From positions 1 through 64,000 of the forward strand of contig CACHMT010000003.1 of the NCBI GenBank assembly GCA_902581005.1: a stretch of DNA of 64,000 nt. Reading direction: 5' to 3'. Under the pieces are notes generated by a model. The model did no database searches. It was not told where the DNA came from and saw only the letters and a list, made by a program, of their open reading frames with translations. The translations under genes were made by a program, and so were the position numbers. The stretch's first letter is position 1, and each line of letters starts with the position of its first letter. Of the stretch, positions 10,973 through 13,655 are shown in pieces. The stretch comes from an uncultured Alphaproteobacteria bacterium. GTDB taxonomy: Bacteria > Pseudomonadota > Alphaproteobacteria > Rhodobacterales > Rhodobacteraceae.

Positions 10973-11078
10973 GTCGCAAGCACTTCACATAGCACTAAGA
11001 ATTAGTAAATCTGGTTGAAAAGTACGTTTTGGCATGATTATTGATTGAGCTATTCTTTTATTATTAAAAGTTATATGA

Positions 11079-13655
11079 ATGACCTCAATTTTTCCTGGTG
11101 GTAATGCTTTAAACGCTGCGAATATAACCAATCAACAGCAAAATCAGTCTGCTGAACTAGTGGAAAAAATTTCCAACGGAAAGAGGCTGATAACCGGTGC
11201 AGATGATGCTGGAAATATTAATAAAGTAAATAACTTAAAAGCAAAAGTGTTAAGTACTAAAGCTGCTATTCGAAGCGTAACAGACATGATGTCTATGGCT
11301 CAAATAGCTGACCAAGGCTATAATAATATCAATAAAATGCTATTAAGGGCGAACGAACTAGCAGTACAATCCACTAATAAGATTTACAAAGATGCTGATC
11401 GAATTGCCCTCAATAATGAAATCCAAAATATCATTGATGAAATAGATAATATCGCCAATGGGATCAGCTTTAATGATACCACACTTATAAATAGTTCTAT
11501 CAAGCAAATTCACTCTGATATGGGTACGGGAAGAACAGGTGAGATATCTTTAGATTTAAGTAATATCGATACAAAACATATAGGTCTGTATTCCCAGAGC
11601 TCATTAAATTTCAGTAGTGATTTAAGCATTGATACTTTTGATGGCATAGATCAGGAAAACTTTCTGTACAATAATGTTTCAACTGATTCAAGTAGATTGA
11701 TCGACTTGGGCGATAGCCTAATTCCTTCTAGCGGAAAAGCGTTTTTCTCGGGATCACATATAGATTTATCACTTAACGACTCTAAGTTGAATAATGAAAC
11801 AATTAAACTAAGAACTATTGCTACAGCGTCTACTGCTAAAAATAGCGTGTCAGTAGTCGGCAACAAGGTGTACGTTGGGAATGGAACTACAGCCGATCAT
11901 GTAGCAACAGTAGATGGCACTTTAGATGGAACAAACGGAAAGAAACTGCGTATTAATATTGAAGAACCTTCTTTTACAAATGGTGACTTTGAATCAGCGG
12001 CTGATTTAGAAGGTTGGACTGTGGAGACTGAAAGAGTGTATTTGAATGGAAGTGACCTTATAGATGGTAAAGCTACTCCGGTTGATAACACCTATCACAA
12101 TAATAATTCTAGCAGAGGTTTAAATGACTCTGATCCACTTGCTAATGGTGGCACAATGTCAGGTGGCATTACGACAACACAAGTTAATAACGGATCGAAG
12201 GCTGTTCGCTTAACTAGCGCCAATTTAACCTCCTCTTCGGGTTACGCTACGGTTAGAGGGCCATACCTGTACAGCAATTCCTACGTTACACTGGGGACCT
12301 CAAGTTCAGTATCATTTGCTTGGCGGGCAGAAGGAGGTGGAGATGCTTATGACGTATATGCATATTTAGTAGATATAGATGATCCGAGTAAAAAAATTAC
12401 ATTACTTAATGAGCATACAAACAACACATCAGGAACCTCTCCTTGGACAACTAAGACAGTCAATATAAATGAAGAAGGAACATTTCAATTCGTTTTTGTT
12501 GCTGGTTCTTATGATGCAAGCGGGGGGAAAGCGTTAGGAGCTCAATTGTTTATCGATGATGTAGCAGTAACAAATGCAGCGAGAAAATTAAATGGTTCCG
12601 TTATTGAAAGCATCGGTTCATTGTTATACGGCGAAGTAGATGTTAATTCAAATGGCAATCTGTCCGTTGGGGCATCAGCGTCCTTAACAGAGAAAATCAT
12701 AAATACTGGACAAGATGTCAGCATATTGGGAACTCTTGGCAAAAAACAAATAAGTGTGAAAAGTGGGGATATTGCTGAGGTAATTGCTAATAAAATCAAC
12801 AAAGTGAAGGATGAAACATCTGTAGAAGCAACTTCTTCGACGCAGGCAATGTTATCTTTTGAGAATACCAGCGGAACAAATTTGAATGATACTGTTTCAT
12901 TTAATTTATATGGTATAGATGGAACGATGAGACATATTAGTTCTAAAATTAACTTTGGTTCAGCCAACCAAAACATGGACTTAGGTCCTCTTAAAGCCGA
13001 GATCAATAATTTTTCAAGCCAGACAGGTATAACGGCATATATATCTGATGACAAGCAAGCAATTATTTTTAAAACGAGGCAGGGCTTTGATATATTAATT
13101 GAGGATTTCAACTTAAAAAATGATACCAATAGCGTCTTCATGTATCTAAATGAGATGAAATCATCTGGGAAAATATCTCCATGTTCATTAAAGCTCAGCC
13201 AGAGTTCAAGTGGTGCAAGTGCTAATGACTCAGCTAGAATTGCTGGTGAAGTTATCCTTAAAAGCCATAAGCACTTCTCTCTGAATTCTACTCAAACCGA
13301 AAGCATACTTTCACTTCGTGAAAAAAATCTCGACTTTGTTTCTTTGTCCACGATAGCGGCAAGATCTTTCGAGGCCGCAAAAAGCTCTATTGATGTTATA
13401 AAGTTTTCCATGAAGTCAATAGCTGCTGAACAGAGTAAAGTTGGTGGACTTGCAAATCAGCTTCAAGAAACAGTGCGTAATCTGAGCCACATGAAGTCTC
13501 TGGATAAAATTTCCATTGGTAAAATAGAAGATGTCGACGTTCCCAAAACAGTTGTCTCCTTACAGAAAGCAAACTATATTCAAAGTATTGCGACTGCGAT
13601 GGTTAACAGAGTTAAATCAACAATGGAAGCTGTCCTTCAAATACTAGATCGATAA
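11079..13655 (+). CDS. Flagellin, 858 aa, with large central insertion including a lectin/CBM-like domain
   Basis: N-terminal flagellin D0/D1 (NQQQNQSAELVEKISNGKRLITGADDAG...RANELAVQSTN...FNDTTLIN), C-terminal D0/D1 (FEAAKSSIDVIKFSMKSIAAEQSKVGGLANQLQ...ANYIQSIATAMVNRVKSTMEAVLQILDR), Flagellin_IN-like segment, and a beta-rich insert (NGDFESAADLEGW...FVFVAGSYDASGGKALGAQLFIDDVAV). Confidence 0.88.
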   Translation: MTSIFPGGNALNAANITNQQQNQSAELVEKISNGKRLITGADDAGNINKVNNLKAKVLSTKAAIRSVTDMMSMAQIADQGYNNINKMLLRANELAVQSTNKIYKDADRIALNNEIQNIIDEIDNIANGISFNDTTLINSSIKQIHSDMGTGRTGEISLDLSNIDTKHIGLYSQSSLNFSSDLSIDTFDGIDQENFLYNNVSTDSSRLIDLGDSLIPSSGKAFFSGSHIDLSLNDSKLNNETIKLRTIATASTAKNSVSVVGNKVYVGNGTTADHVATVDGTLDGTNGKKLRINIEEPSFTNGDFESAADLEGWTVETERVYLNGSDLIDGKATPVDNTYHNNNSSRGLNDSDPLANGGTMSGGITTTQVNNGSKAVRLTSANLTSSSGYATVRGPYLYSNSYVTLGTSSSVSFAWRAEGGGDAYDVYAYLVDIDDPSKKITLLNEHTNNTSGTSPWTTKTVNINEEGTFQFVFVAGSYDASGGKALGAQLFIDDVAVTNAARKLNGSVIESIGSLLYGEVDVNSNGNLSVGASASLTEKIINTGQDVSILGTLGKKQISVKSGDIAEVIANKINKVKDETSVEATSSTQAMLSFENTSGTNLNDTVSFNLYGIDGTMRHISSKINFGSANQNMDLGPLKAEINNFSSQTGITAYISDDKQAIIFKTRQGFDILIEDFNLKNDTNSVFMYLNEMKSSGKISPCSLKLSQSSSGASANDSARIAGEVILKSHKHFSLNSTQTESILSLREKNLDFVSLSTIAARSFEAAKSSIDVIKFSMKSIAAEQSKVGGLANQLQETVRNLSHMKSLDKISIGKIEDVDVPKTVVSLQKANYIQSIATAMVNRVKSTMEAVLQILDR

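Follow-up and report, generated by a model that had tools for sequence, protein, structure and literature searches.

An orphan flagellin with a predicted jelly-roll module of carbohydrate-binding type that is exchanged as a cassette between related bacteria

Flagella are mostly known as propellers and as antigens, with proteolytic flagellins as the tested exception. The window analyzed here, a stretch of 64,000 nucleotides from an uncultured marine bacterium (G000:C3:1-64000 of a 1.53 Mb assembly, 73% complete), contains an orphan gene for an 858-aa protein that has flagellin ends and, between them, a compact module which a sequence-only reading had likened to a carbohydrate-binding module (CBM). 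The question is what such a module does in a flagellin: whether it binds something, packs the filament, or simply varies the filament surface. The features of the locus are as follows.

11030..11045, + strand: sigma54-type (-24/-12) promoter-like site TGGCATGATTATTGAT, separated from the start codon by 33 bases.
11079..13655, + strand: orphan flagellin gene, 858-aa ORF with Pfam Flagellin_N, Flagellin_C and Flagellin_IN; synteny kept in 13 loci.
11079..11498, + strand: D0/D1 N-terminal part, aa 1–140; PF00669 at aa 9–138 (E 2e-18); helices 8–32, 40–98 and 105–128 in the low-confidence full-length model.
11604..11969, + strand: variable linker region V1, aa 176–297, poorly modelled (pLDDT mostly <50); mean pairwise identity 68%, the lowest of the segments.
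11970..12587, + strand: CBM-like jelly-roll module (predicted), aa 298–503; AF2 pLDDT 88.9 and pTM 0.89, Foldseek matches to CBMs, 24 relatives.
12003..12533, + strand: exchanged cassette, from the first to the last fixed difference between alleles A and B in the module, aa 309–485; fixed differences and AU test.
12588..13178, + strand: IN-motif outer domain, aa 504–700; PF07196 in two stretches, the best at aa 547–597.
13392..13652, + strand: D1/D0 C-terminal part, aa 772–858; PF00700 at aa 772–856 (E 1.4e-8); helices 764–816 and 821–857 in the low-confidence full-length model.

Judged by its end domains, the ORF is a bacterial flagellin. In the Pfam search, Flagellin_N scores 67.2 bits against a cut-off of 26.6, Flagellin_C scores 35.4 bits against 23, and Flagellin_IN reaches E 8.7e-12; many solved filament flagellins also match the N-terminal part. 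These matches bear out the earlier claim that D0/D1 ends flank a variable region, but the region between the Pfam-defined ends measures ~630 aa, not ~500 aa, and also holds the IN-motif domain (aa ~504–700). The label "giant" has to be dropped as well, since giant flagellins are those of >1000 aa (PMC6248924). By eye, the IN domain resembles that of a 720-aa flagellin encoded in the main flagellar cluster, in which PF07196 likewise matches two stretches. Conservation extends over the entire ORF and its module in 12 further genomes of the genus, where module identity is 62–94%, and the dN/dS of the module in orthologue comparisons is 0.03–0.14 where estimable, indicating that the ORF is more than a chance reading frame. 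As for a metallopeptidase domain of the flagellinolysin kind, no peptidase family matched the 858-aa ORF, and its translation contains no HExxH. The full-length AF2 model is poor (pLDDT 63.6, pTM 0.36) and was used for secondary structure only, so the surface exposure of the module rests on analogy with other flagellins.

The gene lies on the same contig as the main flagellar cluster, ~90 kb away from it. Its neighbours, named by eye as a molybdopterin-oxidoreductase-like gene, katG, a flavin-reductase-like gene and thyX, keep their order in 13 of 13 loci as far as the stretches reach. Besides the 720-aa flagellin, the cluster encodes two short flagellins that are complete (281 and 282 aa as called), a third that runs off the contig end, and FlgL (428 aa), FlgK (1562 aa; L009:4531-9219) and FlgE (~1273 aa; L101:9939-13499, continued in L009:1-760); the genome also has FliD. 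A short flagellin of <300 aa, for which the sequence-only reading had suggested a search, is thus present. The unusual length of FlgE and FlgK indicates that the axial proteins of this genome are enlarged in general. The Flagellin_C match of the orphan protein is modest, at 35 bits versus 93 bits in the 720-aa cluster flagellin.

The module was found in 13 of the 22 genomes of the genus; these assemblies are 58–91% complete, so its absence from the others is uncertain. Flagellins of other kinds also occur in the genus. A 2433-aa ORF (L057:4529-11830, G009:C10) has Flagellin_N (E 3.3e-20) and Flagellin_C (E 6.7e-6) at opposite ends of a long, repetitive middle with one RTX repeat match, and among G004 and other genomes of the genus, a single genome of ~2 Mb gives up to 18 Flagellin_N matches, some of which appear duplicated between contigs.

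The site upstream of the gene may place it with the flagellar genes. The pattern TGGCAYRNNNNTTGMW has one exact match in the window, the site at 11030–11045, with 0.19 expected by chance, and it is found at the equivalent place in 11 of the 13 orthologous loci (window, L011–L018, L020 and L060). The exceptions are L019, which reads TGGCACAAGAATTGTT and is one position off, and L059, which has no exact match. Across the 1.53 Mb assembly, the pattern occurs at six sites and its reversed control at none. Of the other sites, one precedes flhA by ~130 bases, another flgG by ~35 bases, and a third, by ~50 bases, a radical-SAM gene adjoining fliD and a cytidylyltransferase gene; the last two lie within alaS and before an ORF with no assigned function. 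The window's site, TGGCATG-N4-TTGAT, is conserved and is a putative promoter with GA in its -12 element, where GC is usual. The cytidylyltransferase and radical-SAM/B12-type genes beside fliD (L103:18-2483) possibly serve flagellin glycosylation.

The ~200-aa module had been placed at 11979–12580, and the sequence quoted for it is exact: positions 11979–12581 translate to NGDFESAADLEGW...FIDDVAVTNAA (aa 301–501) and belong to a distinct module of ~205 aa. It was modelled with AF2 over aa 296–505 from an alignment of 25 relatives, giving a confident, almost wholly beta structure (mean pLDDT 88.9, pTM 0.89). With this model as query, Foldseek found 69 PDB matches at E ≤ 0.001, led by a CBM4 (3p6b, E 1.9e-5); other top matches were CBM16, CBM61, CBM29, CBM22 and MAM-containing proteins. 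The list also includes lately solved porphyran- and alginate-binding modules and capsule-depolymerase tailspikes, together with the structural spirochaete sheath protein FlaA1 (9cyn) and enzymes, the Stig cyclases. Against viral models, the matches were phage tail proteins and CenC-like CBM proteins. The TM-scores to solved CBMs are ~0.3–0.5 by query length, which supports the general fold class and not a CBM family. The proposal of a CBM-like beta-sandwich, put forward together with structure prediction and Foldseek as its check, thus stands in the form of a predicted jelly roll of CBM type, as a fold class only.

By sequence, the module remains unnamed. No Pfam family matched it at the cut-off, no CBM family matched up to E 1 across the 25 members, and no relative by sequence was found in the PDB. 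Choice-of-anchor J (NCBIfam NF038128) is the sole named family with matches in the majority of members (20 of 25; the lowest E is 8.1e-5), with scores of 14.0–22.9 bits that lie under the curated cut-off of 30 and chiefly concern the C-terminal half; the window's own module has no match. PLAT/LH2 (PF01477) was considered and rejected, as it scores 18.7 bits in the full protein and 13.8 in the module alone against a gathering score of 23. The module ends "NGDFE...W" and "FIDDV" look like those of CBM_4_9-type modules, and serve as a lead only. In the 25-member alignment, the core motifs GGxDAYDVYAYL and FVFVxG and the residue D198 (numbered by the first row) are conserved across classes.

When 84,980 species genomes were scanned, relatives of the module turned up at 24 loci; since the scan patterns were taken from the window's module, these counts lean towards close relatives. 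In 22 of the 24, the host is an axial flagellar protein (19 flagellins, two hook proteins FlgE and one FlgK) from alpha-, beta- or gammaproteobacteria, and the remaining two are Ig/RTX-type surface proteins. Ten of the loci are orthologous flagellins in marine single-cell or metagenome-assembled genomes. Nine further flagellins come from Luminiphilus, Halieaceae, Pseudomonadales, Porticoccaceae, Betaproteobacteria, Beijerinckiaceae and Rhizobiales, one of which (L023) has the N-terminal family match only, and both FlgE proteins are from Comamonadaceae.

In a wider profile search, the module was present in 5 of 385 evenly drawn alphaproteobacterial genomes and in 4 of 399 of the phylum, the window's genome counted. 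Despite this rarity, one other alphaproteobacterial family has it in 14 of 61 genomes. Its hosts there are flagellins of ~500 to 2101 aa and two hook proteins of the FlgE type. One flagellin of that family (1021 aa; L081, G789:C51) has two modules in tandem (aa 473–639 and 646–851), and in four others (L055, L087, L088, L091) a repetitive insert several hundred residues long splits the module at about position 50–55. RTX-type surface proteins of other genomes, and large surface-type proteins of a LEPR type with an N-terminal LEPRxMFDGA motif (L095, L096) in other Pseudomonadota, also bear the module. Its occurrence in proteins of the filament, the hook, their junction and non-flagellar surfaces would make a function of its own likelier than a role in filament packing.

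Neither plasmids nor phages were accepted as the source of the module. The former offered one weak partial match, to a VCBS-domain protein of Cereibacter; phage records gave no match, and a single relative in IMG/VR lies in an ORF with neither a Pfam match nor flagellar ends.

The comparison of orthologues indicates how the module moves. Among ten orthologues, it exists as two allelic versions, A and B, with 50 fixed differences in the 206 positions of the module, 0 in the 297 positions before it and 1 in the 355 after it; four neighbouring genes have 0–1. As the A and B groups were named after the data had been seen, a control was run, and in no other flagellin segment did any split exceed ~7% fixed differences. 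With no A/B split in the neighbouring genes, we conclude that the module is exchanged as a cassette. Fixed differences are more frequent in loops than in strands (31% versus 16%, Fisher p 0.015), a weak result from a single comparison.

The position of the window's own gene, which has allele A, agrees with this. Its module is 94% identical to that of L011 and 70% to that of L014, which like L016 has allele B, and several flanking segments are nearer to L014. In trees of aa 1–140, the window and L014 are sisters (support 100/96). A module tree constrained to keep this pair fails the AU test (p-AU 3.5e-53), and so do trees of the N, IN and C segments on which the A and B grouping of the module is imposed (p-AU 0.015 to 4e-6). 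Faster evolution of the module was rejected as an explanation because the identities reverse their rank, in addition to the absence of the split elsewhere: identity to L011 is ~0.79–0.86 in the module and 0.75–0.80 just after it, and identity to L014 is ~0.57–0.76 in the module and 0.91–0.93 just after it. Judged from these alignments and trees, the module has been swapped between related species while the flagellin backbone stays in place.

A silent second cassette in the window's genome was also rejected; the sole other match (C26, E 0.005) is a glutathione S-transferase-like ORF, taken as chance. With no second copy of the module in this incomplete assembly, we take the exchange to be between genomes. 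Chimeras from single-cell amplification are an unlikely cause of the split, since the same breakpoints are seen in ten genomes.

Exchange of a larger unit is suggested at another locus of the genus. In G015 (L060), katG, the flavin-reductase-like gene and thyX are 93–94% identical to those of the window, as against just 62% for the flagellin, which suggests that the whole flagellin gene was replaced.

Based on these data, we favour, as probable on balance, the reading that the gene belongs to the flagellar regulon and encodes an alternative flagellin, which displays an exchangeable jelly-roll binding module between D1 and the IN-motif outer domain. The sigma54-type promoter, of which the site is seen and the use presumed, would switch the gene on alongside other flagellar genes; the conserved ends would be exported and would co-polymerize with other flagellins, so that the module would jut from the filament surface. 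There, as its fold and the distribution of its host proteins suggest, it may grip a ligand on the surface of particles, algae or other cells, most likely a glycan, and make the filaments mildly adhesive. As the sequence comparison shows, related species exchange the module through recombination in the regions flanking it, alternating between divergent alleles, and the exchange may alter binding specificity or evade phages or grazers that target the flagellum. As to the earlier statement that each flagellum would display thousands of copies, display on the filament is plausible in view of the intact ends, the flagellar-type sigma54 site and the short flagellins; the copy number is uncertain, because the genome has four or more further flagellin genes, and the 858-aa protein could be a minor filament subunit.

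Alternatively, the module may be a structural outer domain that dimerizes or packs round the filament core, making it stiffer, thicker or sheathed, with an effect on swimming rather than on binding. This has precedents in the outer domains of E. coli O157:H7, Achromobacter and S. meliloti, which make motility-affecting sheaths or screw-like surfaces (PMC8931119), and it would suit both the FlaA1 match and the oversized FlgE and FlgK of the same genome. One would expect a packing domain to vary in step with the adjacent domains, yet the module is swapped alone, and its hosts, which include FlgE, FlgK and Ig/RTX-type surface proteins, have no filament packing in common; we consider this explanation, the main rival, unlikely.

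The exchange by itself would also fit a module with no particular ligand, a variable surface coat turned over by flagellotropic phages or grazers as in H-antigen switching. Two deeply diverged alleles are swapped across species, and the variable regions of E. coli and Salmonella flagellins recombine and are targets of phages and antibodies (PMC7018530). On the other hand, core motifs conserved across classes and a dN/dS of 0.03–0.14 reflect more constraint than a decoy needs, even if plain maintenance of the fold fits them too, and we rate a coat of this kind as rather improbable. We find it hardly credible that the protein is flagellin-like at its ends only and, instead of a filament subunit, is secreted or is a minor part of the cap or junction. 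The ~90 kb between the gene and the main flagellar cluster and the modest Flagellin_C score would be in keeping with it, but both ends match known flagellins, FlgL, FlgK and FliD are already encoded in the genome, and the sigma54-type site is common to flagellar genes.

The favoured reading, a displayed binding module, can be extended beyond this gene. Hosts at the hook, at the hook–filament junction and on non-flagellar surfaces point to a module with a function of its own. We suggest tentatively, and with some doubt, that this unnamed jelly-roll family is a general flagellar display module of Proteobacteria, used in filament, hook and junction, that makes the flagellum glycan-gripping, with two or more specificities circulating in marine populations by module-only swaps between species. 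If this is true, a portable binding-type domain exchanged as a cassette in filament, hook and junction proteins would mean that contact with surfaces and particles is a selected function of the flagellum in open-ocean bacteria. The family is well defined by the 25-member alignment, and it has relatives in groups with cultivable members, which makes the proposal testable.

Among known systems, CBM families 4, 16, 22, 29 and 61 share the general beta-sandwich fold of the module according to Foldseek; unlike them, the module has no sequence match to them at threshold, and it is hosted by flagellar axial proteins rather than by glycoside hydrolases. The likeness to choice-of-anchor J stays below the cut-off and lies mainly in the C-terminal half. 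A search of open-licence papers on glycan-binding flagellins found nothing direct. Eckhard et al. (2017, PMC5595980) describe 61 domain types in flagellin variable regions, with no CBM-like domain among the ten most frequent. Flagellinolysin, the metallopeptidase-bearing flagellin of the same paper, is similar in that a functional domain sits in the central variable region of flagellins scattered across bacteria, and multiplication of the domain by filament assembly was proposed there; it differs in that a gluzincin protease is inserted, whose activity has been tested, whereas ours is a predicted jelly roll with no known activity.

The giant flagellins of Bermanella and Oleibacter also come from marine bacteria and have an enlarged outer region, but they exceed 1000 aa through internal duplication and a novel insert (PMC6248924), whereas the flagellin described here has 858 aa and a portable jelly roll; module-bearing relatives reach 2101 aa. 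Domain-bearing flagellins are thus already known, and what is new here, within the open-licence papers searched and with earlier notice elsewhere possible, is the unnamed jelly-roll family and the exchange of that single module. A known parallel to the exchange is H-antigen switching in E. coli and Salmonella, where a central flagellin region is likewise replaced by homologous recombination in conserved flanks. There, recombination ends in the conserved C1 and C2 regions (PMC7018530), whereas here a single module inside the variable region has the A/B split, and neither V1 nor the IN domain beside it follows that split.
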